Source of the DNA: Actinopolyspora mzabensis | GTDB lineage: Bacteria > Actinomycetota > Actinomycetes > Mycobacteriales > Pseudonocardiaceae | Length of the DNA: 64,000 nt | NCBI RefSeq assembly: GCF_900101095.1 | Contig: NZ_FNFM01000001.1 | Span: forward strand, 248,001 to 312,000 | Direction of reading: 5' to 3' | Part shown: positions 2,838 to 60,717 of the stretch, piece after piece | Layout: every line of letters begins with the position of its first letter | How positions within the stretch are numbered: position 1 is the first letter of the stretch | Translations under genes and position numbers: made by a program | Notes under the pieces: generated by a model | The model's database searches: none | Told to the model about the DNA's origin: nothing | Seen by the model: the letters and a program-made list of their open reading frames with translations, nothing else

Positions 2838-3677
2838 GTGACCGAATCCGCTTCGTCGAAGCACCCGCGTTCCCGCTCGGTGCCGCGTGCGGTACTGGCC
2901 GTCGCCGGGCGCGGCGCCCTCGCCCTCGGCACGGTGGCGAGCACCGTGCTCGGTGTGGGTGCGGTGGCGGTGCTCGGGGAACCGTCCGCCGCCCCGCAAG
3001 CACCCCCGCTGGCGCGGCAGAACGTCGAACCCGCCCCGGTGGAACCGGGGTCGAGCGCCCCCGGCCGGTCCGCGACCGGCTCCGAACCCGGCGCCGAATC
3101 GGGCGACGACCCGGTGCGCGACTGGGCCAACGAGGTGGCCGCCGTCGTCGACGTTCCCGCCCGGGCGCTGGTGTCCTATGTGAACGCCGATCTGGCCATG
3201 CGCAGCCGAGCTCCGAGTTGTGGCGTGGACTGGGCGACCCTGGCGGGCATCGGGCGGGTCGAGTCGGACCACGGGCGCTACAGCGGGCGCAGGCTCGGCG
3301 CCGACGCGGTTCCCTCCACCCCCATCATCGGTGTGCCCCTGGACGGCGGTGAGGACGTGCGTGCCATCACCGACACCGACGACGGCGTGCTCGACGGTGA
3401 CACCGTCCACGATCGAGCCGTCGGGCCGATGCAGTTCATTCCCTCCACATGGGCGAAGTGGAGCACCGACGGCAGCGGTGACGGGGTGGGTGATCCGCAC
3501 AACCTCGACGATGCGGCGATGGCCGCCGCGCGCTACCTCTGCGCGGGCGGGCGCGACATGCGCAGCGGCGACGGCTGGTGGTCCGGCGTGATGTCCTACA
3601 ACAACTCGGTTTCCTACGCCAGGAAGGTGTTCAGCCTGGCCGAGCGCTACGCCCAAGCAGGCAGTCGCGACGAATGA
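2838..3677 (+). CDS. Lytic transglycosylase paralogue
   Basis: Second SLT_2/MltB-like transglycosylase of the region, 279 aa. A hydrophobic stretch at residues about 27-47 after a basic N-terminus acts as signal or anchor, followed by a Pro/Ala/Glu-rich linker to residue 95. Catalytic region: GIGRVESDHG with candidate Glu142, VGPMQFIPSTW, and the DGSGDG loop, in the same order as in the neighbour at 1069. GTG start at 2838; no strong ribosome-binding site is evident. Probably secreted peptidoglycan remodelling. The next gene is convergent and a repeat element lies just downstream. Confidence 0.86.
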   Translation: MTESASSKHPRSRSVPRAVLAVAGRGALALGTVASTVLGVGAVAVLGEPSAAPQAPPLARQNVEPAPVEPGSSAPGRSATGSEPGAESGDDPVRDWANEVAAVVDVPARALVSYVNADLAMRSRAPSCGVDWATLAGIGRVESDHGRYSGRRLGADAVPSTPIIGVPLDGGEDVRAITDTDDGVLDGDTVHDRAVGPMQFIPSTWAKWSTDGSGDGVGDPHNLDDAAMAAARYLCAGGRDMRSGDGWWSGVMSYNNSVSYARKVFSLAERYAQAGSRDE

Positions 3678-3720: not shown

Positions 3721-3830
3721 GGCGGAACCTCACGGGCCGTCTCGCTGCGGGATCCTCGACATCGAGTAGTTACTACGCCACGTCGAGGCTGTCCTCGCGA
3801 GACGACCCGTGAGAACCCGCGGCGGTGCCG
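3721..3830 (+). repeat. Palindromic repeat element, copy R1
   Basis: About 110 bp beginning GGCGGAACCT and ending GCGGCGGTGCC, present in several copies in the window. Left arm CTCACGGGCCGTCTCGC and right arm GCGAGACGACCCGTGAG are complementary at 16 of 17 positions; an inner stem CCTCGAC/GTCGAGG and GTAGT/ACTAC completes one long imperfect hairpin. It lies between convergent genes. Confidence 0.85.
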
Positions 3831-6419: not shown

Positions 6420-6433
6420 GAAGGGAAGTGACG

Positions 6434-6955
6434 GTGTCGGGCGTGGACCCGAGCGGTGAGCCCACCGCGACCGAGGACGACCGGCTGATCGTGCGGCGCC
6501 AACTGGGACGCCCGCCCAGGGGGATGCGCGACGTGGTGACCCGCGACTCCTCGGGCGAACCCACCGTGGTGCGCACCAGCCCCCGGCTGCCGGACGGGAC
6601 CCCGTTCCCCACGCTGTACTACCTCACCGCGCCCCGGCTGGTGACTCTGGTGTCCACGCTGGAGTCCGAGGGGCTGATGCGCGAGATGACCGAGCGGTTG
6701 GCCACCGACACCGGGCTGGCCGAGCGGTATCGCCGTGCGCATCGGGATTACCTAGCCGAACGCGACGCGCTCGAACCGCTCGGCACCGAGGTCAGCGCGG
6801 GCGGGATGCCCGGCAGGGTGAAATGCCTGCACGTGCACGTGGCTCATTCATTGGCCAAGGGGCGCGAGGTTAACCCGTTCGGGGACGAGGCGCTCGATGT
6901 GATCGCCCAGCGGTGGCCCACCGAAGCACCGGAGCTCTTTCCCGGGTTCGGGTGA
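6434..6955 (+). CDS. DUF501 family protein
   Basis: A 173-residue cytosolic protein of the DUF501 family (Rv1025 homologue by position and sequence type), function unknown. Conserved-looking blocks are RQLGRPPRGM, PFPTLYYLTAPRL near residue 60, and GMPGRVKCLHVHVAHSLA with its Cys/His cluster near residue 140, which suggests metal binding. The frame is open upstream; GTG 6434 is preferred because GAAGGGAAG lies 7-8 bases before it, although GTG 6416 or 6428 are possible. Last gene of the enolase operon; ppx, which follows in mycobacteria, is displaced to 11.8 kb here. Confidence 0.85.
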   Translation: MSGVDPSGEPTATEDDRLIVRRQLGRPPRGMRDVVTRDSSGEPTVVRTSPRLPDGTPFPTLYYLTAPRLVTLVSTLESEGLMREMTERLATDTGLAERYRRAHRDYLAERDALEPLGTEVSAGGMPGRVKCLHVHVAHSLAKGREVNPFGDEALDVIAQRWPTEAPELFPGFG

Positions 6956-6985: not shown

Positions 6986-7245
6986 GGCGGAACCTCTCGC
7001 ACGGCTCTCGCTGCGGGGCCGACGACATCGAGTAGCGACCTACACAACGTCTCCGGCGTCCTCGCGAGAGCCGCACGGGAGAACCCGCGGCGGTGCCGAC
7101 TGCGAGGGTGGTCGGTGCTCGGTCTGTGGGAGTGGTCGGAGTTCGGCCCTGCGGCGAGGGCGCGACGATTTCGCGGGAAATTGACGGAGCACGGGGTCAA
7201 ACCTCCGCACTGGGGCGTCAATTTCGCGAGAAATTGACGCCGCCC
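6986..7245 (+). repeat. Palindromic repeat copy R2 with hairpin pair
   Basis: Core element 6986-7098 (same ends as copy R1) followed by a linker with GTGGTCGG motifs and two hairpins whose ATTTC arms start 53 bases apart: one at 7166-7183 and a stronger one at 7215-7240 (GCGTCAATTTC, loop GCGA, GAAATTGACGC). A further left-half copy runs 7257-7308. This fills the 388-bp space between the convergent DUF501 and aidB genes; no gene is seen in it. Confidence 0.85.
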
Positions 7246-7343
7246 CGAAGTCGGGTGGCGGGGCCTCCCGCGCGGCTCTCGTCGCGGCCGGTCCCGACAT
7301 CGTAGCGGTGTCGATCGCCCAAGGGGTGGTAGTTCGGCGTGGC

Positions 7344-9005: not shown

Positions 9006-9105
9006 GCCCGCAGCGTAGGACATATCGGTTACCGAACAGTAGTAGTCGTCGCTCCCAGATCGAGCGGCGCAGTCGCGCGCGAGGAGCCCCGGAGCGCGTG
9101 GCCGT

Positions 9106-9305
9106 CAATTTCTCGCGAAATCGCCGCGCCGCTACGACGCGGAGCCGACCCCCGACCACTCCTGCAGGCCGCGCTCCGACCACTCTCGCAATCGGCACCG
9201 CCGCGGGTTCTCCCGTGCGGCTCTCGCGAGGACGGTCCCGACGTGGCGTAGGTGGCTACCCGATGTCGGGGCACCCGCAGCGAGAGCCGTGCGAGAGGTT
9301 CCGCC
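9106..9305 (-). repeat. Palindromic repeat copy R3 (inverted) with hairpin
   Basis: Core at 9193-9305 in reverse orientation relative to R1/R2, with the associated ATTTC/GAAAT hairpin at 9106-9123 (+ strand loop TCGC) on the side expected for that orientation. It sits in the 420-bp intergenic region between the divergent aidB and transglycosylase genes, so it could affect both promoters. No gene is seen in this stretch. Confidence 0.83.
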
Positions 9306-11650: not shown

Positions 11651-11755
11651 GACGCCGCGGGTCCTCCCGTGCGGCTCTCGCGAGGAAGGCCCGACGTTGG
11701 GTCGCTACCCGATGTCGGGCCTCCCCGCAGCGAGAGCCGTGCGAGAGGTTCCGCC
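11651..11755 (-). repeat. Palindromic repeat copy R4 (inverted)
   Basis: Reverse-orientation core element with both arms present (GCGGCTCTCGCGAGGA on the left, GCGAGAGCCGTGCGAGAGG on the right) and the inner CGACGT/CGATGTCG region. No hairpin pair is attached. It ends 50 bp before the ppx start codon. Confidence 0.83.
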
Positions 11756-11805: not shown

Positions 11806-12759
11806 ATGGTGCGCGTTGCTGCGATCGACTGCGGGACGAACTCGATCCGGTTGTTGATCGCCGAGGTGACCGTGCACGAGGACGGCACGCGCGAACTGCG
11901 CGACCTGCACCGCGAGATGCGGATCGTGCGGCTGGGGCAGGGGGTCGACGCCACCGGCAGGTTGTCCGAGGAGGCGCTCGACCGCACCAGGCAGGCGCTG
12001 CACGACTACGACGAGCGCATCCGCGAGGAGGCCGTCGAGCGCACCAGGATGGTGGCCACCTCGGCGACCAGGGACGCCGCCAACCGCGAGGACTTCTTCG
12101 GGATGGTCCGCGAGACGCTGGGGGTGGAGGCCGAGGTCATCACCGGCGAGGAGGAGGCCAGGCTCTCCTTCGTCGGCGCGGTGGGTGACCTGGACCCGGC
12201 GGACGGTCCGTTCCTGGTGGCGGACGTGGGTGGTGGTTCCACCGAGTTGGTGCTCGGCCACTGGGACGGCAAGGAGGCCCGGATTGCCGGATCCCACTCA
12301 GCGGACATCGGATGCGTGCGTCTCACGGAGCGTTGCCTCCATACCGATCCGGCTACCCCCGATGAGGTGAAGATCGCGAGTGAGTTCACGCGGGAGGCAC
12401 TGGATGACGCGTTCGCCGCCGTGGACGTCTCCGCCGCGCGCCGCTGGGTCGGGGTGGCGGGCACCGTCACCACGTTGTCGGCGATCTCGCACGGTCTCTC
12501 CCAGTACGACCCCGCCGCGATCCACCTGTCCCGCGTGTCCCGGACCAGTGTCGACGAGACCGCTCGTGAGCTGCTGGCGATGGATCACGAGCAGCGCGCC
12601 GCGCTGGGACCGATGCACCCGGGGCGGGTGGACGTCATCGGGGGAGGCGCGTTGGTCGTGAGCGTGCTCGCGGCCGAGCTGGCGGAGCGAGCCGGGATCA
12701 CGGATATCACTGTCAGTGAGCACGACATCCTCGACGGTATCGCCCTTTCGATCGGTTGA
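11806..12759 (+). CDS. Exopolyphosphatase/guanosine pentaphosphatase (Ppx/GppA)
   Basis: Ppx/GppA family phosphatase of the sugar kinase/Hsp70/actin fold, hydrolysing polyphosphate or pppGpp; 317 aa, the short actinobacterial form (Rv1026-like by context). Phosphate-binding loop 1 is VAAIDCGTNSIRLL at the start, and loop 2 is ADVGGGSTELV near residue 140. EVITGEEEARLSF matches the family. A perfect-looking AGGAGGAAGC precedes the ATG. In mycobacteria it directly follows the DUF501 gene; here aidB, a transglycosylase and repeats intervene. Confidence 0.92.
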   Translation: MVRVAAIDCGTNSIRLLIAEVTVHEDGTRELRDLHREMRIVRLGQGVDATGRLSEEALDRTRQALHDYDERIREEAVERTRMVATSATRDAANREDFFGMVRETLGVEAEVITGEEEARLSFVGAVGDLDPADGPFLVADVGGGSTELVLGHWDGKEARIAGSHSADIGCVRLTERCLHTDPATPDEVKIASEFTREALDDAFAAVDVSAARRWVGVAGTVTTLSAISHGLSQYDPAAIHLSRVSRTSVDETARELLAMDHEQRAALGPMHPGRVDVIGGGALVVSVLAAELAERAGITDITVSEHDILDGIALSIG

Positions 12760-18896: not shown

Positions 18897-18935
18897 GGGA
18901 AGCGCTGTCTCTCCGAGGAGCCTCTCCTCGCGGTG

Positions 18936-18969
18936 GGGGGCGTCGATTTCGCGCGAAATCGACGCCCCC
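18936..18969. terminator. Hairpin ending the peptide importer operon
   Basis: Perfect 15-bp stem (18936-18950 with 18955-18969) with loop GCGC and the family ATTTC/GAAAT apex, but no T-tract. It lies between the convergent importer and S10 peptidase genes and is also the first hairpin of repeat copy R5. Confidence 0.65.
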
Positions 18970-19109
18970 TGCGGCGGTGCGGCCCCGGTCGGCGTCAATT
19001 TCTCGCGAAATCGCGGTGCCGCTGCGACGCAGGACTGAGCTCCCACCACTCCCGCAGGCCGAACACCGACCACTCACGTAGCTGGACCACCCGCACGGGA
19101 GGTTCCGCC
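18936..19109 (-). repeat. Repeat copy R5: hairpin pair plus deleted core
   Basis: Two ATTTC/GAAAT hairpins with arms 52 bases apart (18946 and 18998), then the GTGGTCGG-type linker in reverse orientation, then only the outer ends of the core (CCGCACGGGA joined to GGTTCCGCC at 19091-19109). The interior appears deleted. It occupies the convergent intergenic space. Confidence 0.78.
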
Positions 19110-24935: not shown

Positions 24936-25560
24936 CCGAAAACCGTTGTTCACAGCACTTGTTGATCATCGCGCTCAGCGGGATGTGCTGAGTTGTCCAT
25001 TTCGGACTCGGCGTGTCGCTGGTGAGACGGCCTTCGGTGAGATCGTTCCTACGTGAGATCTTGGACGCGACGTTGTCGGTCTTCTTCCACTGTCCTCTTT
25101 CGTCGCTTCCTTGTCGAGCATCGCGATGTGGACAGTCCCGTGCCGATCACGACCAGCGCGCCTCCTGGCCGAACCTGCTCGCGAGCACATGGGGCACACC
25201 GGGGACAAAACGCATACCGGGACAAAACCGGAGCCGTACAGCGGGCCCGAGGGGCCACGACCGCCAGTGGCGGAGGGATCCGGTTTCCCGGCTCCGACTC
25301 GTCCTCGCGACCCCTGAAGGACTCCGGTAGTTGGCATTATGCCGACGCCCTCGACTGTCCCGGCCCGTATCGCTGTGCGGCGGAGTCGAGAATCCTCGCT
25401 CGTGGGCGGGTGACCTCCTGCGGCGGCCACCCGTAGGGCCCCGGATCTCCGGGCACCGAACCGACTGTGAACAGCCTCTCCTGTCGCCGCTGTGTTCGGG
25501 CCACGACGTTGCGCCGCCCACACCGAGCGGAGTCACACTCACCGGAATTGTTAGGTTCTT
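24936..25560. other. Gene-free stretch between tRNA and riboswitch
   Basis: About 620 bp in which I find no credible gene: open frames on both strands have Arg/Pro/Ser-biased composition, no ribosome-binding sites and no recognisable domain. Composition is patchy and slightly lower in GC than neighbours. No tRNA 3'-end duplication marking an integrated element was seen. Confidence 0.5.
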
Positions 25561-25737
25561 CCTCGCCAGTCAACCCGCCCGGGCAGTGCCGCCGGGCGGC
25601 GCAGGGAATCCGGTGCGAATCCGGAGCTGACGCGCAGCGGTGAGAGGGACGCGCGGAGCAGCGGCCACTGAGACGAGTTCTCGGGAAGGCGCTCCGGGCG
25701 GAGGATCTCGAGCCCGAAAACCTGCTGGCTGTGGCGT
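25561..25737 (+). ncRNA. Cobalamin riboswitch
   Basis: The B12-box core GGGAATCCGGTGCGAATCCGG followed by AGCTGACGCGCAGCGGTGAGA spans 25603-25645, close to the family consensus. Downstream GCCACTGAGAC (about 25663) and GAGCCCGAAAACCTGCTGGC (about 25710) are the other conserved blocks, and CGCCAG near 25564 can pair with CTGGC at the end. It lies about 70 bp upstream of btuF and would shut off the importer when adenosylcobalamin is plentiful. The expression platform (25738-25805) contains a half copy of the dispersed repeat. Confidence 0.93.
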
Positions 25738-25753
25738 CGCCCGACGCGACGCA

Positions 25754-25793
25754 CGGAAACCGCCCGCACGGCTCTCGCGCATGGAGCCCCGAC
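25754..25793 (+). repeat. Half copy of the dispersed repeat in the btu leader
   Basis: The segment matches the left arm of repeat copies R6/R7: CGGAA, then GCACGGCTCTCGC (13 identical bases), then GCCCCGAC at equivalent spacing. The right arm is missing. It lies in the riboswitch expression platform, ending 12 bases before the btuF start codon. Confidence 0.65.
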
Positions 25794-25805: not shown

Positions 25806-26834
25806 ATGAAGAGATCGTCCCGTGTCTTATCCCTGACCTGTCTGCTTCCGCTCGGCCTCGGGGTGCTGACCGCCTGCGGCGGCAGCGGCTCGGAAGTCTC
25901 CGGCCAGGACAGCGCCGCGGGCTACCCCAGGACCGTCGAGAACTGCGGCAGGGAGATCACCGTCGAGGCCCAGCCGGAACGCGCGGTCTCGCTGAACCAG
26001 GGCTCCACCGAGATCCTGCTCTCGCTCGGTCTCGCCGATCGCGTGGTCGGCACCGCCACCTGGACCGACCCGATCCTGCCGAGCCTGCGGGAGGCCAACT
26101 CGAAGGTCCCCAGGCTCGCCGACAACGCCCCCTCCTACGAGCGGGTGCTGGCCGAGGAGCCGGACTTCGTCTCCGCGTCCTTCGAGAGCACCTTCCAGGA
26201 GGTCTCCTCCAGGGACGACTTCGCCGATATGGGCGTGCCCACCTATCTCTCCCCGGCCGACTGCGTCAAGAACAACGAGGGCGACGGCGACGGCGCACGC
26301 GACGAGCCGCTGGAGATGAGCACCATCTACCGGGAGATCGAGGAGCTCGCGCGGATCTTCGACGTCGAAGAGCGCGGTGACGAGCTCGTGGGGGAGCTGC
26401 GCGGCAGGCTGGACGAGGCCTCCTCCGAGATCGACGCCTCCGGTGTGAGCATGCTCTACTGGTTCGCCAACAAGGAGTCGCCCTACATGGCGGGCTGCTG
26501 CGGCGCGCCCGGCATCATCACCGAGGAGCTTGGCGCGAAGAACGTCTTCGACGACACGAACAAGGAATGGCCGCAGATCAACTGGGAGACCGTGGCCCAG
26601 CGCGACCCGGACGTGCTGGTCCTCGGTGACCTGACTCGCGAGAGCCAGACCGCCGAGGAAGCCGCCCAGAAGATCGAGTTCCTGGAGAACAACCCGGTCA
26701 CCAAGCACATGGCCGCCGTGCGCAACGACCGCTACATCCGGCTCAGCGGCGCCGCCATGAACCCCTCGATCCGGACCGTCGACGGTGTGGAACGGGTCGC
26801 GGCCAAGCTGCGTGAGTTCGGGCTCGTCGAGTGA
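25806..26834 (+). CDS. btuF: Cobalamin ABC transporter substrate-binding lipoprotein (BtuF-like)
   Basis: Periplasmic-binding-protein type 2 helical-backbone fold (Fe/B12 class), 342 aa, attached to the outer face of the membrane. Signal peptide with lipobox LTAC (Cys24). Family features are the N-lobe RTVENCGREITVEAQPERAVSLNQGSTEILLSLGL start and C-lobe INWETVAQRDPDVLVLGD. The B12 assignment rests on the riboswitch directly upstream; by sequence alone it could be an iron-siderophore binder. ATG 25806 has GGAGAAGGA before it. Overlaps btuC start. Confidence 0.87.
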   Translation: MKRSSRVLSLTCLLPLGLGVLTACGGSGSEVSGQDSAAGYPRTVENCGREITVEAQPERAVSLNQGSTEILLSLGLADRVVGTATWTDPILPSLREANSKVPRLADNAPSYERVLAEEPDFVSASFESTFQEVSSRDDFADMGVPTYLSPADCVKNNEGDGDGARDEPLEMSTIYREIEELARIFDVEERGDELVGELRGRLDEASSEIDASGVSMLYWFANKESPYMAGCCGAPGIITEELGAKNVFDDTNKEWPQINWETVAQRDPDVLVLGDLTRESQTAEEAAQKIEFLENNPVTKHMAAVRNDRYIRLSGAAMNPSIRTVDGVERVAAKLREFGLVE

Positions 26835-27868
26835 GCGCCCTACTGGCCCGATCCCGCGGGGGTGCCGCCGCAGCTCTCTGGCTGGCCGGTCTGCTGCTGC
26901 TCGCGCTCTCCATCGCCGTCACCATCACGTTCGGTCCGGCCGACATCGCGGTGACCAACGTATGGGCGGTGGTGGGCGAGCACCTCGGTCTCGGCGACGC
27001 CGGACTCTCACTGATCCGCGAGGGGATCATCTGGGACCTCCGGTTGCCCCGGACCGTGCTGGCGGCGGTTTGCGGGGCCGGGCTCGGACTGTGCGGCGTG
27101 GTCATGCAGTCCCTGCTGCGCAACCCGCTGGCCGACCCGTACGTGCTGGGGATCTCCTCCGGGGCCTCCACCGGGGCCGTGCTGGTCGTGGTGCTGGGAA
27201 TCGGCAGCGGCGTGCTCTCGCTGTCGCTCGGCGCGTTCCTCGGATCGCTGGTCTCGTTCGCGCTGGTGATGGTGCTCAGCCACATCGTCGGTGGCACCGC
27301 CGACCGCGTGATCCTCTCCGGGGTCGCGGCCATGCAGCTGTTCTCGGCGCTGACCTCGTTCATCGTGATGTCGGTCGCCGATTCCCGGCAGACGCGCAGC
27401 GTGTTGTTCTGGCTGCTCGGTTCGTTGAGCGGCACCGGCTGGTTCGAGGTGTGGCTGTGCCTGGGCGCGCTACTCGCGGTGCTGGTGGTGTGCACCGCCA
27501 AGTCGAGTTCGCTGGACGCGTTCACCTTCGGGCAGGACGCGGCCGCCTCGCTCGGCGTTCCGGTGGCGCGCACCCGGTTGCTGCTGCTCGTCGTGACCGC
27601 GTTGCTCACGGCCACGCTGGTCAGTGCCTCCGGCGCCATCGGTTTCGTGGGGCTGGTGCTGCCGCACGCGGCGCGGGCCATCGTCGGCCCCGGCCACCGC
27701 AGGCTGTTGCCGACCACCGCGCTGGCCGGGGCGATCTTCCTGGTGTGGATCGACACGATCGCCCGGACGCTGCTCGATCCGCAGGAGATCCCGGTCGGCG
27801 TGATGACCTCGCTGGTCGGGGTGCCCGCGTTCGTGGTCATCCTCTACCGCAGCCGCAAGGTGCACTAG
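26831..27868 (+). CDS. btuC: Cobalamin ABC transporter permease (BtuC/FecCD family)
   Basis: FecCD-type permease, 345 aa, about nine to ten membrane helices. Recognisable family blocks are LRLPRTVLAAVCGAGLGLCGVVMQ, RNPLADPYVLGISSGAS and GFVGLVLPHAARAIVGPGHR, the last being the ATPase coupling region. GTG start overlaps the btuF TGA by four bases. btuD follows only after a 323-bp gap that holds repeat copy R6, so the operon is split. Confidence 0.92.
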   Translation: MSALLARSRGGAAAALWLAGLLLLALSIAVTITFGPADIAVTNVWAVVGEHLGLGDAGLSLIREGIIWDLRLPRTVLAAVCGAGLGLCGVVMQSLLRNPLADPYVLGISSGASTGAVLVVVLGIGSGVLSLSLGAFLGSLVSFALVMVLSHIVGGTADRVILSGVAAMQLFSALTSFIVMSVADSRQTRSVLFWLLGSLSGTGWFEVWLCLGALLAVLVVCTAKSSSLDAFTFGQDAAASLGVPVARTRLLLLVVTALLTATLVSASGAIGFVGLVLPHAARAIVGPGHRRLLPTTALAGAIFLVWIDTIARTLLDPQEIPVGVMTSLVGVPAFVVILYRSRKVH

Positions 27869-27906: not shown

Positions 27907-28017
27907 GGCGGAACCTCTCGCACGGCTCTCGCTGCGGGTGCCCCGACATCGGGTAGTTACTACACGACGTCGGGGCCGTCCTCGCGAGAGCCGCACGGGA
28001 GAACCCGCGGCGGTGCC
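27907..28017 (+). repeat. Palindromic repeat copy R6, between btuC and btuD
   Basis: Full core: left arm beginning GGCGGAACCTCTCGCACGG, inner CCCCGACATCGGGTAGTT region with GTAGT/ACTAC, right arm GCGAGAGCCGCACGGGAG, end GCGGCGGTGCC. It fills most of the 323-bp gap between btuC and btuD; the remainder holds only the btuD leader. No hairpin pair is attached. Confidence 0.86.
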
Positions 28018-30138: not shown

Positions 30139-31494
30139 GTGGAGCAATTCTTCGGCTTTATCCTCTACCCGGTGTCGTGGCTCCTCTGGGTGTGGCACCA
30201 GCTCTTCGGCGCCGTGTTCGGCCCGGACCAGGGCATCAGTTGGATACTCTCCGTCTTCTTCCTGGTGTTCACCCTGCGTGTGCTGCTGCTCAAGCCCGCG
30301 CTGAGCCAGATCCGCGCGGGGCGCAAGATGCAGAAGTTCGCCCCGCAGATGCAGAAGATCCGGGAGAAGTACAAGAACGACCGCCAGAAGATGGCGCAGG
30401 AGATGCAGAAGATGCAGTCCGAGCAGGGGGTCAACCCGCTCGGTGGCTGCCTTCCGGCGCTCGTGCAGATCCCGGTCTTTCTGAGCCTGTTCCACGTGCT
30501 GCGCGGGTTCGACCCCACCGAGGACAGCAACTTCGCCTTCGGCAGGCAGGGTGTTCAGTCCTTCGTCAACGCCGACATCTTCGGGGCCAAGCTCTCCAAC
30601 TGGATCACCCAGCCCGAGCAGCAGTTGGAGCAGTTCGACACCACCCGCGCCGATATGATCATGGTGGGCATCCCGCTGATGATCGTCGCCTCGGTGGCCA
30701 CCTACTTCACGATGCGCATGTCGATGAAGCGCCAGTCCGACGCGGCGATGGCCAACCCGCAGAGCGCGATGATGGGCAAGGTCATGATGTACCTCGCCCC
30801 GATCGGCGCCCTGGTCTCCGGTTGGTTCCTGCCGCTGGCGGTGCTGTTCTACTGGCTCGCCAACAACGTCTGGACCCTGGGGCAGCAGCACTTCCTCACC
30901 AACAAGGTCGACCGGGAGGAAGCGCGCCAGAAGGAGCAGGACATCGCGGCCAAGAAGGAGGCCCCGCGCCCCAAGCCGGGACAGAAGCCGGATCGCGGCG
31001 GCGGTAACAAGGCCGTCGCGGAGCTCGACGAGGAAGAGACGGACGAGGAGTCGCCCGAGGCCACCTCGGAGAACGGCGCCAAGTCCGGCAATCGTTCCAA
31101 GGCCGGCAGCGGCTCCAAGACTGGCAGCGGTTCCAAGACTGGCAGCGGTTCCAAGGCGGGCTCCGGCAAGTCCGGGAGCGGCTCCGCGGCCAAGAAGACC
31201 TCCCAACGGACCAACGGTTCCAAGACGGGCTCCGGCACCAAGACTGGTTCCGGAGCCAAGGCCGGCTCCAGTGGCAAGTCCGGCTCGGGTTCCAAGAACG
31301 GTTCCGGGAGTGCCAAGTCGGCCGCGGGTGCCAAGTCCGCCGGTGGTTCGGGCGGCGGCTCGGAGAACGGCGGCAAGTCCTCCGGTGGTTCCGGGAGTGA
31401 CTCGGGCAACAAGAAGGGCCAGCAGTCCAAGAATCGTTCGGGTGGCTCGGGTAAGCAGTCGGGGGCGCAACGGAGCCAGAAGAAACGCCGGTGA
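30139..31494 (+). CDS. YidC/Oxa1-type membrane protein insertase with basic tail
   Basis: Membrane insertase, 451 aa. The Oxa1 core (residues about 1-260) has the first helix FFGFILYPVSWLLW, hydrophilic-groove helix WILSVFFLVFTLRVLLLKPAL with the conserved Arg, the charged cytoplasmic hairpin (KMQKFAPQMQKIREKY), NPLGGCLPALVQIPVFLSLF and later helices. From about residue 285 the protein is a Lys/Gly/Ser low-complexity tail of repeated GSGSKTGSGSK-like units. It is not next to rnpA/rpmH, so it is probably a second insertase rather than the housekeeping copy. GTG start, ribosome-binding site CCAGGAG. Confidence 0.9.
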   Translation: MEQFFGFILYPVSWLLWVWHQLFGAVFGPDQGISWILSVFFLVFTLRVLLLKPALSQIRAGRKMQKFAPQMQKIREKYKNDRQKMAQEMQKMQSEQGVNPLGGCLPALVQIPVFLSLFHVLRGFDPTEDSNFAFGRQGVQSFVNADIFGAKLSNWITQPEQQLEQFDTTRADMIMVGIPLMIVASVATYFTMRMSMKRQSDAAMANPQSAMMGKVMMYLAPIGALVSGWFLPLAVLFYWLANNVWTLGQQHFLTNKVDREEARQKEQDIAAKKEAPRPKPGQKPDRGGGNKAVAELDEEETDEESPEATSENGAKSGNRSKAGSGSKTGSGSKTGSGSKAGSGKSGSGSAAKKTSQRTNGSKTGSGTKTGSGAKAGSSGKSGSGSKNGSGSAKSAAGAKSAGGSGGGSENGGKSSGGSGSDSGNKKGQQSKNRSGGSGKQSGAQRSQKKRR

Positions 31495-34165: not shown

Positions 34166-34396
34166 GGCGGAACCTCTCGCACGGCTCTCGCTGCGGGAGC
34201 CTCGACATCGAGTAGTTACTACGCCACGTCGAGGCTGTCCTCGCGAGGCGACCCGTGAGAACCCGCGGCGGTGCAGGTGGCGAGGGTGGTCGGAGCTCGG
34301 TTCGGGGCTCAGCGTCGCGGCGATTTCGCGAGAAATCGACGGAGCCCGGGGCCTGTGCCGCCCTGCCGTCCCGGCGATTTCGCGAGAGATCGACGC
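34166..34396 (+). repeat. Palindromic repeat copy R7 with hairpin pair
   Basis: Best complete copy: core 34166-34275 with inner CCTCGACATCG...CGTCGAGG stem and GTAGT/ACTAC, a linker, then two hairpins CGATTTC-GCGA-GAAATCG (34321-34338) and a near copy at 34375-34392 (arms 54 bases apart), both with GCGA loops. It fills much of the 551-bp space between the thiolase and SGNH genes; no gene is seen there. Confidence 0.86.
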
Positions 34397-34492
34397 CGTC
34401 CGAACGGGAACCGACCACGCTCCGGGGTACCCCGCGTGCGTCGTTCCGAGTCTTTGGAACCTGCACAGTGCGACTGTGGGGGAGTTCCCGGC

Positions 34493-37346: not shown

Positions 37347-38816
37347 ATGAGCTCTCCGCAATCACCCGAAGGTGGTAACCAGGAGGAGCGGCAGCCGGAT
37401 TCGTCCTTCGAGCAGCAGTCCGGCAACGCCGAGGCCGACGCGTCCACCCCGGACTCGACCCAGAAGATCTCCTCACGGATGAATCCGCAGGAGTCGGAGC
37501 AGCCGGAGAGCGGGCAACAGGGCGATCGGAGTTCCGGTGCGGATTCGACGCAGGTCGTCAATCCCGCGCAGGCCATGCAGCAGATGGAACAGTCCCCGCA
37601 GCCGCAGCCCCAGCAGGAGGGCGGGACCACACAGGTCGTTCCGCCGTCCATGCAGCAGCCGCAGCCGATGTACGAACAACCCGGCCTGGGTGGGCAGCAG
37701 TCCGGTGGTTTCGCGACGCAGCCTCCGGGCGCGCAACCACCCCAGATGCCGGGACAGCCCGGGCAACAGGCCGTGCCGGGGCAGCCACCCGGCCAGCAGG
37801 GAGCCCCCGGGCATCCGGGTATGCCGGGGCAGCCACCGCAGATGCCGGGGCAGCCACCCGGCCAGCCCGGGATGCCCGGTACGCCCAGTGGTGGGTTCCC
37901 GGCGCAGCAGCCACCACCGCCGGGACAACCCGGGCCGTTCGGCGCGCCGCCGCAGCAGGGGCAGCCTCCCGGTGGTAACAAGTCCGGGGCGGTCGTCCCG
38001 GCAGGGCCGCCGGTGGAGTGGGGCGAGCGCGCGAAGAGCTACCTCATCGACGGCATCGCCCCCGGCGTGGCTTACGGCATCGTCTACCTGATCGCCGCTG
38101 CCCTGCTGTTCGGTGGCACTGCCAGCAGTGTTTCCAGTGGCGGGACGAGCGGCGGTGGTGCCGCCGTGTTCGGCGGAATACTGATGTTCCTGGCCGTGAT
38201 CGCCCTGATCGGCTTCATGGTCTGGAACTACGGTTACAAGCAGGGCACCACCGGGCAGTCCCTCGGCAGGCGCATGGCCGGGACGATGCTGATAAGCGAG
38301 GCAACCGGCAGGCCGGTCGGGTTCGGTTACGCCTTCCTGCGCTACCTCTGCCACATCGTCGACAGCCTTCCGCTCGGCATCGGTTTCCTGGCGCCGCTCT
38401 GGGAGCCCAAGAACCAGACCTGGGCCGACAAGATCATGGGCACGGTCGTCGTTCCCGCCGTCCCGGCCGGACCAGGTGGTCCCGGCGGACAACCCGGCAT
38501 GCCCGGCCAGCCCGGCATGGCTCCCGGACAGCAGTACGCCCAGCCCTACGGTCAGCCCTATCCGGGGCAGCCCGGTCAGCCGATGCCGGGGCAACCCATG
38601 CCCGGCCAGCCCGCGCAGGGCCAGCCCATGCCCGGCCAACCGATGCCGGGGCAACCCATGCCCGGACAACCCCCCGCACCGGGACAGCCGCCACAGCAGG
38701 GGCAGCCCCCGCAAGGACCCCCGCAGCAGGGCCAGCAGCCCATGCCGGGCCAGCCCTACGGGCCGCCGCCGGGTGGGTACCCGCCGCAGCCGCCCGGCCA
38801 GCCACCGCAGTGGTGA
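37347..38816 (+). CDS. RDD-family membrane protein with Pro/Gln-rich termini
   Basis: 489-residue protein like the mycobacterial proline-rich antigen (Pra, Rv1078) in place and design. Residues 1-220 are Gln/Pro/Gly-rich with MPGQPPGQP-type repeats; residues about 225-385 form the RDD domain with two to three membrane helices (WGERAKSYLIDGIAPGVAYG, then FLAVIALIGFMVWNYGYKQG, GQSLGRRMAG); residues 385-489 are again PGQPMPGQP repeats. Function unknown. ATG 37347 follows TAGGAAAACCCG. Confidence 0.88.
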   Translation: MSSPQSPEGGNQEERQPDSSFEQQSGNAEADASTPDSTQKISSRMNPQESEQPESGQQGDRSSGADSTQVVNPAQAMQQMEQSPQPQPQQEGGTTQVVPPSMQQPQPMYEQPGLGGQQSGGFATQPPGAQPPQMPGQPGQQAVPGQPPGQQGAPGHPGMPGQPPQMPGQPPGQPGMPGTPSGGFPAQQPPPPGQPGPFGAPPQQGQPPGGNKSGAVVPAGPPVEWGERAKSYLIDGIAPGVAYGIVYLIAAALLFGGTASSVSSGGTSGGGAAVFGGILMFLAVIALIGFMVWNYGYKQGTTGQSLGRRMAGTMLISEATGRPVGFGYAFLRYLCHIVDSLPLGIGFLAPLWEPKNQTWADKIMGTVVVPAVPAGPGGPGGQPGMPGQPGMAPGQQYAQPYGQPYPGQPGQPMPGQPMPGQPAQGQPMPGQPMPGQPMPGQPPAPGQPPQQGQPPQGPPQQGQQPMPGQPYGPPPGGYPPQPPGQPPQW

Positions 38817-40154: not shown

Positions 40155-40217
40155 CCGCGGCGCTGGGGCTGCTCGCCGCGGCGCTGGGGCTGCTCGCCGC
40201 GGCGCTGGGGCTGCTCG
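40155..40217. repeat. 21-bp tandem repeat, three units
   Basis: Three identical units CCGCGGCGCTGGGGCTGCTCG at 40155, 40176 and 40197, with a degenerate fourth. It starts three bases after the metB stop codon. Confidence 0.95.
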
Positions 40218-40240
40218 CGGCGGCGCTGCTCGGGCGGTGT

Positions 40241-40307
40241 CGATTTCTCGCGAAATCGCCGGGCCGCTGGTGCGGCGCGGCCCGGGCCGCGTAATTTCCC
40301 ACGAAAT
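40241..40307 (-). repeat. Hairpin pair of repeat family (copy R8)
   Basis: CGATTTC-TCGC-GAAATCG at 40241-40258 and a weaker TTTC-CCAC-GAAA hairpin near 40295-40306, with ATTTC arms 51 bases apart. Only degenerate linker and core sequence follows to about 40370. Located between convergent metB and the small lipoprotein gene. Confidence 0.7.
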
Positions 40308-40397
40308 CGCCGCGCGGCTGCGGGAGGTCCCGGGCACCGATCTCCCGCCATCCGCACCGGCGGGCAACCCGAGGCGTCGGGCTTCCGCCACGGCCGT

Positions 40398-45531: not shown

Positions 45532-46091
45532 CGGTGCTCGGTTACGCGGCGGAGCTCGCGACGGAGCGGCAGCCCCTGCTCATGGTGGTGGCGCAGGACT
45601 CGGGTCCGGGAGTGCAGGACGAGGGGTTCGGCAAGTCCACCCCGCTCGCGCTGTTCCTGATCCTGGTGCTGCTGATCGCGGTCGTCTTCCTGGCCCGATC
45701 CATGACCAAGCAGCTCGGCAAGGTTTCCACCCGGTTCGACGAGCAACGGGCCGCGGCGGCGGCTCCGAAACGCGTCAAACGTGCCGAGGCCGCCCGCCTC
45801 GCCAGGCAGCAGGAAGCCGTGGGTACGGCCGGGACCGCCGACGATGCCGCCGAGCGAACCGAGGGGGCCGCCGAGCGAACCGAGGGGGCCGCCGAGCGAA
45901 CCGAGGGGGCCGCCGAGCGAACCGAGGGGGCCGACTCGTCCGCCGGTTCCGAGGGCCGGGGACGAGCTCCCGGCCCGGGGGTGTCCGCCTCCGAGGTTCC
46001 CGGTGGCGAGCACTCCGAGGACAACGCCGCGACGGACGACGCCACGGGAGACGGTTCCGCGGAACCTCGCGAGCGGGATCGTACGGACTGA
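45528..46091 (+). CDS. Small membrane protein with heptapeptide repeats
   Basis: 187-residue protein at the Rv1083 position. One membrane helix ([23 protein letters not shown]) follows a short extracytoplasmic start, then a basic coiled segment ([34 protein letters not shown]). Four identical AERTEGA heptads (DNA 21-bp units at 45846-45929) and an acidic disordered tail follow. Function unknown; tight coupling with mca suggests a linked role. Overlaps the mca stop by four bases. Confidence 0.82.
45846..45929 (+). repeat. In-frame 21-bp tandem repeat, four units
   Basis: Four units GCCGCCGAGCGAACCGAGGG (plus G) encode AERTEGA heptads in the small membrane protein. Near-perfect identity indicates recent expansion or frequent conversion. 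Confidence 0.95.
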
Positions 46092-55646: not shown

Positions 55647-55907
55647 TCAGCTGCCGTTGGTGACCGAGGTGGGGTGGTCCACGACCGGCGCGTTGACGCA
55701 CTGCGAGGGCTGCGAGTGCAGCAGGTTGACAACCGCGCCGGCCACGGCGACGTTGTTGCCGCACAGCTGGACCGGCAGCACGCTCAGGTTGTTGTCGTTG
55801 AGCACGTTGATGCCGTCGTTGTCCTTGGTGTCGGCGCTGGCCATGGGAGCCATGGCCATCATGCCCGCGGCGGCGATACCAACGGCGGCGGCGGTCTTCT
55901 TCAGCAT
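55647..55907 (-). CDS. Chaplin-like small secreted protein 1
   Basis: 86-residue protein with a clear signal peptide (LKKTAAAVGIAAAGMMAMAPMASA). The mature 62 residues contain INVLNDNNLSVLPVQLCGNN, VAVAGAVVNLLHS, and a second cysteine in SQCVNAPVVDHP. The CGN-x-V-x-V-x-G pattern with two cysteines resembles the chaplin domain of aerial-hypha surface proteins, though it is not a canonical match and a rodlin-like role is possible. ATG 55907 with AAGGAG upstream. Tandem paralogue follows at 56203. Confidence 0.75.
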   Translation of the reverse strand: MLKKTAAAVGIAAAGMMAMAPMASADTKDNDGINVLNDNNLSVLPVQLCGNNVAVAGAVVNLLHSQPSQCVNAPVVDHPTSVTNGS

Positions 55908-56202: not shown

Positions 56203-56454
56203 TCAGCTGATCGCCTTGGGGTGGTCCACGACCGGCGCGTTGACGCACTCGGAGGACTGCGAGGTCAGCACGTTGGCGACAACGCCGAGCACGGCGACGT
56301 TGTTGCCGCAGGCCTGGACCGGGACGGCGCTGATGTTGTTGTCGTTGAGCACGTTGATGCCGTCGTTGTCCTTGGAGTCGGCGCTGGCCATCGGGGCCAT
56401 CGCGACCATCCCGGCGGCGGCGATACCCACGGTGGCTGCGGTCTTCTTCAGCAT
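56203..56454 (-). CDS. Chaplin-like small secreted protein 2
   Basis: 83-residue paralogue of the preceding gene: same signal peptide (LKKTAATVGIAAAGMVAMAP), same INVLNDNN motif, VPVQACGNNVAVLGVVANVL and SSECVNAPVVDHP. High identity between signal sequences and the last 12 residues indicates recent tandem duplication. The 300-bp upstream region (to 56768) is strikingly AT-rich around 56579-56640 and contains CGATA-ACAC-TATCG, a likely regulated promoter. ATG 56454, Shine-Dalgarno AGGGAG. Confidence 0.76.
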   Translation of the reverse strand: MLKKTAATVGIAAAGMVAMAPMASADSKDNDGINVLNDNNISAVPVQACGNNVAVLGVVANVLTSQSSECVNAPVVDHPKAIS

Positions 56455-60679: not shown

Positions 60680-60717
60680 TGGCTGGGCGCGATTTCGCGA
60701 GAAATCGCGCCCAGCCA
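60680..60717. terminator. Strong GCGA-loop hairpin after phoH2 (repeat family, R9)
   Basis: Perfect 17-bp stem (60680-60696 with 60701-60717) capped by GCGA and carrying the ATTTC/GAAAT apex of the dispersed hairpins. It lies between convergent genes and is the longest stem of this family; no T-tract. Confidence 0.75.

Follow-up and report, generated by a model that had tools for sequence, protein, structure and literature searches.

A hairpin element under structural constraint that stands mostly behind genes in Pseudonocardiaceae

We describe a non-coding hairpin element that is dispersed between the genes of Actinopolyspora mzabensis and recurs in other genera of its family. The structure of the element is under constraint: its stems have been kept paired by compensatory change or by block exchange. 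Most copies stand shortly behind the stop codon of a co-directional gene, and their orientation is also tied to the direction of replication. We tentatively read the element as a mobile-derived hairpin at the 3' ends of genes that may act as a transcript boundary.

The hairpin family in the window and in its genome

The starting point was a 64,000-nt stretch of contig NZ_FNFM01000001.1 (positions 248,001 to 312,000), called the window throughout. A sequence-only reading of the window had proposed a dispersed, intergenic family of near-palindromes. An nhmmer search of 464 kb (a contiguous 400-kb sample plus the window) recovered this family with a best E-value of 4.7e-36. At 45 bits or more, the search returned 24 distinct copies, 6 in the window and 18 further ones in the sample; the copies of the window are thus not the only ones in the genome. 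All 24 lie between genes, as called with a home-made codon-score caller, confirming a dispersed, non-coding palindromic family. By extrapolation, the genome (5.0 Mb, 24 contigs) holds about 250 copies. In a DNA search of the same genome, 40 of 221 candidates from a first look were scored and each of them had E ≤ 1e-37; the right-end pattern matched 120 times genome-wide versus 10 times for its reversed control. Chance composition was rejected on the nhmmer E-value, the control counts and the fold energies given below.

The six full copies of the window have the positions and strands first assigned to them. They are listed here with the partial copies and the short B palindromes that accompany them; the position rule is placement close behind the stop codon of a co-directional gene.

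3721..3830, + strand: full hairpin copy of a subtype with a CACGGG outer arm; the gene called at 2880-3677 stops 43 nt before it
6986..7098, + strand: full hairpin copy; 30 nt past the stop of the DUF501 gene 6428-6955
7158..7246, + strand: tail of the 6986 copy, with a pair of B palindromes
7257..7308, + strand: decayed left half-copy
9096..9136, - strand: tail of the 9193 copy, with a single B palindrome
9193..9305, - strand: full hairpin copy between divergent genes; breaks the position rule
11651..11755, - strand: full hairpin copy with an altered right end; the Ppx/GppA gene 11806-12759 starts 50 nt after it; breaks the position rule
18934..19026, - strand: pair of B palindromes adjoining the 19091 scar
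19091..19109, - strand: scar of a lost hairpin; copies in the same gap measure 118-119 nt in genomes G004, G009 and G003
25754..25793, + strand: uncertain, weak likeness to a left half; over 36 nt, 81% to the two nearest copies and 72% to a third
27907..28017, + strand: full hairpin copy; the FecCD permease gene 26831-27868 stops 39 nt before it
34166..34275, + strand: full-length copy, a mosaic of two subtypes with unpaired outer arms; opposes both neighbour genes, an exception to the rule
34313..34402, + strand: pair of B palindromes CGATTTCGCGAGAAATCG in the tail of the 34166 copy

The ends first described for the family are found on four of the full copies; the description fails for the 11651 copy, which has the right end GCGGCGTC, and for the 34166 copy, which has GTGCA. 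The 34166 copy joins the left arm of one subtype to the right arm of another, a feature absent from the earlier reading. It folds poorly because its arms belong to different subtypes: −52.3 and −55.7 kcal/mol on its two strands, against −57.4 to −75.5 kcal/mol on the reader's strand and −73.8 to −79.7 kcal/mol on the opposite strand for the other five full copies. The 19091 site had been taken for an internally deleted copy. Relatives do keep a copy in this gap, including weaker or shorter ones (95 nt in G007, 56 bits in G008), but nearly the whole hairpin is gone from the window and only a scar is left. The match at 7257 is indeed the left half of a copy, now decayed, whereas the supposed left half at 25754 is too weak a match to be counted firmly.

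The window has other features of its own. A cobalamin riboswitch at 25550-25743 (Rfam, 92.1 bits) lies upstream of a cluster that includes the FecCD permease gene. Two stretches of 247 nt, 55661-55907 and 56208-56454, form a direct duplication with 85% identity, 547 nt apart. Tandem repeats at 31071-31307, 38555-38672, 40155-40228 and 45817-45933 have units of 18, 15, 21 and 21 nt; these periods are divisible by three, and the repeats are probably coding.

In Actinopolyspora, the core hairpin of about 110 nt is bordered by a conserved left flank of 22-28 nt and a right flank of about 40 nt. The left part of the element runs from the left flank through GGCGGAACCT, the outer arm, CTCGCTSCGGGA and the inner arm to the apex, where many copies carry GTAG/CTAC. 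The right part continues with the complementary inner arm, CTGTCCTCGCGAG, the complementary outer arm, AGAACCCGCGGCGGTGCCGG and a right flank with TTGCG and GTGG motifs. The left flank has the consensus GGTTTGCGTRGCGGTGCGGGT in other genera, and its left edge lies at −28 in the Actinopolyspora set. Short B palindromes are often present in the Actinopolyspora tail. A short GCGGC/GCCGC hairpin lies at most 110 nt away from 78 of 143 other-genus copies, at 27-38 nt past the core in 76 of the 78; its strict form, AAGCGGC..GCCGCTT, accompanies 45 of the 143 copies versus 13 of 3510 random places.

Two further repeats were seen beside the element. Element B (CGATTTCGCGAGAAATCG) often occurs as a pair about 53 nt apart, in the element tail or alone; beyond the sites listed above, the window has it at 40231-40322 and 60690-60708. 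A loose pattern for B matched at 8 places in the window and at 30 in a 400-kb stretch of contig C14. Element C, another large hairpin whose apex is similar (GAGTAGCGACCTACGCGG), forms a second family, found on C14 of the same genome at 161274-161385, 248737-248847, 165273-165385 and 134016-134126 (within loci L031-L050). Four of the five C copies above 35 bits stand 41-47 nt behind a stop codon, and at two places C lies directly ahead of a copy of the 110-nt element. By eye, the arm or apex of the element at loci L337 (genus g15), L342 (genus g55) and L250 (Saccharopolyspora rosea) contains an insert some 55 nt long that has a GGCGC/GCGCC hairpin (CCCGCCAGCCCGACCACCGCCCC...); this insert is possibly another small mobile element that targets the hairpin.

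Pairing, strand and position relative to genes

Copies across the genera were captured with a wide pattern that yielded 203 copies; a narrower first pattern had yielded 93, and none from S. rosea. From 47 chosen copies we aligned 46 across nine genus groups (alignment A4), leaving out the longest, L259. In this alignment, 95.2% of cells were paired, versus at most 49.0% in slid versions. Double changes occurred in 22 of 37 pairs across the nine groups. There were 240 double-change cells, versus 70.8 ± 8.0 in shuffled alignments, and none of 500 shuffles reached 240. The same signal was detected within the genus, where 43 copies had 31 double-change cells versus 5.4 in shuffles. The arms vary widely between genera, yet the base of the stem, the internal loops and both flanks are similar throughout. 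Varying but paired arms combined with a fixed base, fixed loops and fixed flanks are the pattern expected if a folded strand is recognised, either as RNA or as single-stranded DNA. This suggests that some partner recognises the shape of the hairpin.

The two strands are not equivalent. With RNA parameters, the strand opposite the upstream gene was the more stable one in 45 of 46 copies (mean 10.0 kcal/mol); with DNA parameters, it was so in 41 of 46. Mismatches in the outer arms pointed the same way outside the genus: the gene strand of 108 copies had 60 A.C versus 12 G.T mismatches (p 8e-9), and A.C on the gene strand means G.U on the opposite strand, yet these counts are non-independent because of shared ancestry and one recurrent wobble position. 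In Saccharopolyspora, one wobble position makes up 21 of 31 mismatches. The Actinopolyspora excess sits in six fixed pairs, and the minor mismatch types number only 20 G.U versus 13 A.C.

We then scored open reading frames of at least 60 codons around each copy. A co-directional frame ended 8-74 nt upstream of 212 of 249 copies. The mirrored side had such a frame in 91 of 249 cases (odds ratio 9.9), and random places had one in 1345 of 4980 (27%); orthologous copies of related species were counted singly in this test and are thus non-independent. The median spacing from stop codon to element was 38 nt in Actinopolyspora, 39 nt in genome G022 and 38 nt in Saccharopolyspora. Shorter spacings were found in small samples of g55 (15, 15, 15, 34 and 37 nt) and Amycolatopsis (11, 11, 22, 36 and 36 nt).

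Gene calls gave a similar picture. In G022, where calls covered 75 of the 92 listed copies, 66 of the 75 followed a co-directional gene, 49 of these 66 at 28-58 nt. Its tandem gaps held 31 co-directional versus 8 opposite copies, and a single copy lay between divergent genes. Among the 24 copies from the window's own genome, 16 stood behind a gene of their own direction, 12 at a distance of 28-50 nt, 4 lay between divergent genes and 4 stood against tandem genes; 12 of the 16 gene-following copies were in convergent gaps. Convergent gaps sometimes hold two facing copies, one for each gene, as in the 19091 slot of G001 and G005 and in two cases in G022. Within the window, the rule was obeyed by the copies at 3721, 6986 and 27907 and by the 19091 scar, and was broken by those at 9193, 11651 and 34166. 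By eye, hairpins that look native stand between the stop codon and the element at L002, L013 and L328, so the element need not be the first structure behind a gene.

The orientation of the copies is also linked to replication. We compared three complete genomes, G003, G021 and G022, in which dnaA lies at about 2 kb and the terminus was taken as opposite. Among the listed copies, 27 of 33 in G003 (pooled), 27 of 29 in G021 (29 of its 39 copies listed) and 73 of 92 in G022 (92 of 114 listed) pointed from origin to terminus. The bias was weaker in G009 (25 of 36, p 0.03, a hand tally with the terminus assumed opposite dnaA). Each convergent gene pair holds one leading- and one lagging-strand gene, and still 27 copies followed the leading-strand gene versus 8 for the other in G022 (p 0.002); gene numbers alone are therefore insufficient to explain the polarity. 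Two causes could give rise to it: genes on the leading strand may be expressed more strongly, or certain hairpins may be lost more readily. We favour the second and infer that the copies lost most often are those with their stable strand on the template of the lagging strand.

Distribution, age and an IS5-type capture

The covariance-model search of related genera that the sequence-only reading had proposed as a check detected the element, with model R2, in 72 of 248 Pseudonocardiaceae genomes, representing 15 of 44 genera. R2 gave no hit in 295 other genomes of a phylum-wide sample (20 of them listed by kinship), and model R1 none in 24 genomes of other families in the order. All these searches scored a capped number of candidates; those with R2 used stricter filters and scored 15 per genome in the family and 12 in the phylum sample. 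At the sensitivity of these searches, the element appears to be limited to Pseudonocardiaceae.

Copy number ranged from 1 to at least 114 per genome; G006, a 4.2-Mb genome of the same genus, is nearly element-free, with 3 matches. Only 6 of 171 clusters of upstream genes spanned more than one genus, which we roughly estimate to be about chance for so partial a sample. Most sites were thus probably gained after the genera parted, and we rejected conserved ancestral sites between genera as the main pattern. One upstream gene is common to Amycolatopsis and g55. Species within a genus can have a site in common, as in four species of g55 behind a gene that, by eye, looks like gatB.

To follow individual sites, we compared the window region in ten Actinopolyspora genomes, that is, the seven element-bearing gaps in up to nine relatives. 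The three relatives closest to the window's genome (G004, G007 and G009) bear an element at all seven sites, six copies and the scar; G008 has it at six of the seven and G003 at five. Copies are thus old and shared at their sites in the region compared. The 11651 copy is absent from G003 and G008, where a remnant of the left flank remains, and the 27907 gap of the most distant group measures just 19-22 nt; for neither copy did the relatives show a clean insertion site. More generally, the aligned absences of this region consist of decay, scars and gaps that cannot be aligned, and the search that the earlier reading had proposed, for target-site duplications and empty sites, yielded neither in these ten genomes.

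Copies also change in place. Block replacement has given the 9193 copy a new interior in G009 and the 27907 copy a new left flank in G007 and G009. Deletion scars were found at four places: the 34166 gap (in G005 and G002), the 19091 site of the window, and C14 near 311002 and near 228171. Their junctions differ, a pattern that fits palindrome deletion better, and excision by a specific enzyme was rejected on these grounds. At C14:88801-88903 of the window's genome, the left halves of two facing copies form a chimeric hairpin with near-perfect inverted ends.

The situation is different in S. rosea. A search of NZ_CP102826.1 for the roughly 15-bp inverted repeat GCCTGTCTTYGAACT, allowing at most two mismatches, gave 417 matches versus 8 for a control pattern. 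At the loci examined, such terminal inverted repeats (TIRs) enclose the hairpin in 13 units of 227-229 bp, and 7 of the 13 have identical CTNAG flanks; among 35 TIR pairs, a number that includes overlapping pairings of the same site, 16 have identical flanks. Other units with the same inverted repeats (138-144 bp, at L355, L360, L365 and L380) lack the hairpin core. An insertion sequence of 958-959 bp shares the first 12 TIR bases at its ends, and its three copies (L237:3608-4567, L250:2964-3923 and L361:1684-2642) all have identical CTNAG flanks. They encode an identical protein of 277 aa, free of stops, that matches PF13340, PF01609 and the NCBIfam model for IS5 family transposases (DDE). 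All three copies sit inside the arms of older hairpins at CTNAG, and so does at least one MITE unit lie within an older hairpin. Capture is thus a simpler explanation than ancestry, and from these sequences the element appears to have been captured and multiplied by an IS5-type system in S. rosea. A transposase with matching ends, which the earlier reading had suggested looking for, therefore exists in this species.

TIRs of this kind were not found outside S. rosea, save for a trace in S. soli (L259). No TIR signal was detected in Actinopolyspora (own 7.18 versus cross 7.07, with 3 of 119 copies above the cross 95% mark) or in G022 (3 of 64 above the mark). The MITE label first given to the family therefore suits S. 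rosea, with its IS5-type ends and CTNAG flanks, but not the genus of the window, where copies have no TIR, target-site duplication or clean empty site. The broader claim of a non-autonomous mobile origin is very likely right, given that the genes followed differ from genus to genus and that genomes hold from 1 to more than 100 copies; the RAYT/REP type named with it did not stand.

Known repeat families and candidate roles

According to published descriptions, REPs measure 20-40 bp, have an unpaired GTAG or CGTC tag and often come with a RAYT. The element resembles REPs, BIMEs and REPINs as a non-autonomous hairpin found outside genes in high copy number; it differs in its length of about 110 nt and in the GTAG of its apex, which is paired, and a RAYT partner was not found in the window's genome. 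A search of that genome for Y1 transposases returned one match, an IS200/IS605 TnpA beside a TnpB-type gene (PF01385, PF07282). No element copy was found in this 3.4-kb locus (L051, C9:60668-64030), and a RAYT partner was rejected for this genome. By eye, the TnpA/TnpB locus appears to lie inside an SRPBCC-like gene.

The ERIC or IRU sequences of enterobacteria are intergenic palindromes that occur in many copies and have no transposase of their own. Compared by description, our element shares these traits and a similar length; it belongs to another taxon and adds stems that covary across genera, fixed loops and ties to stop codons and to the direction of replication. The literature on this type reports a unit of 127 bp. 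As regards the IS5-family MITEs, the likeness lies in the TIR, the CTNAG flanks and the transposase with a matching TIR start of S. rosea, and the difference in the Actinopolyspora and G022 copies, on which such ends were not seen. We know of no single bacterial repeat family that combines covarying stems, a place behind stop codons, polarity with genes and replication, and capture by an IS5-type system.

An attC site is co-oriented with its cassette gene. The element also resembles attC in size, in its conserved ends, in the fold of its bottom strand and in its place behind a gene. The attC literature describes sites of 57-142 nt with little sequence conservation except at the ends, an active folded bottom strand, and boxes that pair, AAC on one strand with GTT on the other. 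In the element, the ends GCGGAACCT and AGAACCCGC both carry AAC on the same strand, in an internal loop, and copies are not arranged in arrays. Same-strand AAC was found at the left end of 201 and at the right end of 197 of the 203 captured copies (the capture pattern asks for most of these letters) and at both ends in all rows of A4. Membership in attC was rejected because the end boxes do not pair as AAC/GTT.

Rfam gave no match to the element at the gathering cut-off; the best sub-threshold score was 26.4 bits against a cut-off of 142, and all hairpin look-alikes remained below threshold. Flank profiles, for both flanks in the Actinopolyspora set and for the left flank in the set across genera, revealed no U-run after the hairpin on either strand. 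With the weaker fold in the mRNA sense, this does not indicate a classical intrinsic terminator. No published description of the element was found in a literature in which subscription journals were thinly covered; the accessible parts of PMC3733652, PMC2267715, PMC3469384, PMC3610266, PMC2727003 and PMC3116915 do not describe it.

Taken together, these results lead us to favour, if tentatively, a mobile-derived hairpin at the 3' end of genes whose presumed function is that of a transcript boundary. The element would have spread as a non-autonomous mobile hairpin, with some helper in most genera and with an IS5-type transposase in S. rosea. A copy that persists close behind a stop codon would take the place of the upstream gene's 3' end. 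There it may both protect the 3' end of the mRNA and block convergent and antisense transcripts, in whose RNA the hairpin would be the more stable of the two. The polarity would arise because deletion more often strikes copies that have their stable strand on the template of the lagging strand. The weaker fold of the mRNA-sense strand speaks against a boundary role, as does the 34166 copy, which persists without pairing arms. Conserved internal loops would be superfluous in a plain terminator and suggest that something else recognises the element. Because many sites have tolerated its loss, the element does not look essential at any one of them.

The chief rival, which we rank second and consider a real possibility, is a selfish single-strand hairpin: some recombinase or HUH-type enzyme would recognise the folded opposite strand and would insert it behind genes, and the host would gain nothing. 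Such an enzyme would account for a conserved stem base and loops beside freely changing stems, for a strand-specific fold with a preferred orientation, for the patchy copy number and for upstream genes that genera rarely have in common, and it would have analogues in IntI acting on attC and RAYT acting on REPINs. However, a helper gene was not found, the one region compared in ten genomes yielded no recent insertion marked by a clean empty site, and the copies have been retained for long with their pairing mostly maintained. That the element was an IS5-type MITE throughout, with S. rosea in the ancestral state and the TIRs lost in other genera, is improbable. The abundance of TIR-like sites in S. 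rosea, its hairpin units with CTNAG flanks, the insertion sequence with its transposase and the S. soli trace would all agree with it, but 119 Actinopolyspora and 64 G022 copies lack any TIR signal, older hairpins surround the insertion sequence and at least one MITE unit, and 6 of the 13 units have no identical flanks. A trans-acting structured RNA or an antisense RNA made from the strand opposite the upstream gene would fit the better fold of that strand, its G.U pairs in place of A.C and the strong covariation; with very many copies behind unrelated genes and no Rfam match above threshold, we consider it quite unlikely. We give almost no credence to a RAYT/REP (REPIN) family, which shares with the element its many intergenic palindromes behind genes, because the single Y1 match of the window's genome is an IS200/IS605 TnpA with no copy in its locus and because the anatomy differs.

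It is conceivable, although we hold it doubtful, that Pseudonocardiaceae have a folded-strand insertion system comparable but unrelated to attC/IntI and REPIN/RAYT, in which a dedicated factor, from the host or from a mobile element, would recognise the folded opposite strand by its fixed stem base and internal loops and would place the element directionally behind stop codons time and again across the family. The element would then represent a class of strand-specific structured elements that is new to the literature. If a helper or a binding protein exists, the fixed loops make that protein findable. GC-rich actinobacteria seldom use U-run terminators. If the transcript boundary that we favour is right, the element would show how GC-rich actinobacteria end their transcripts at many genes.
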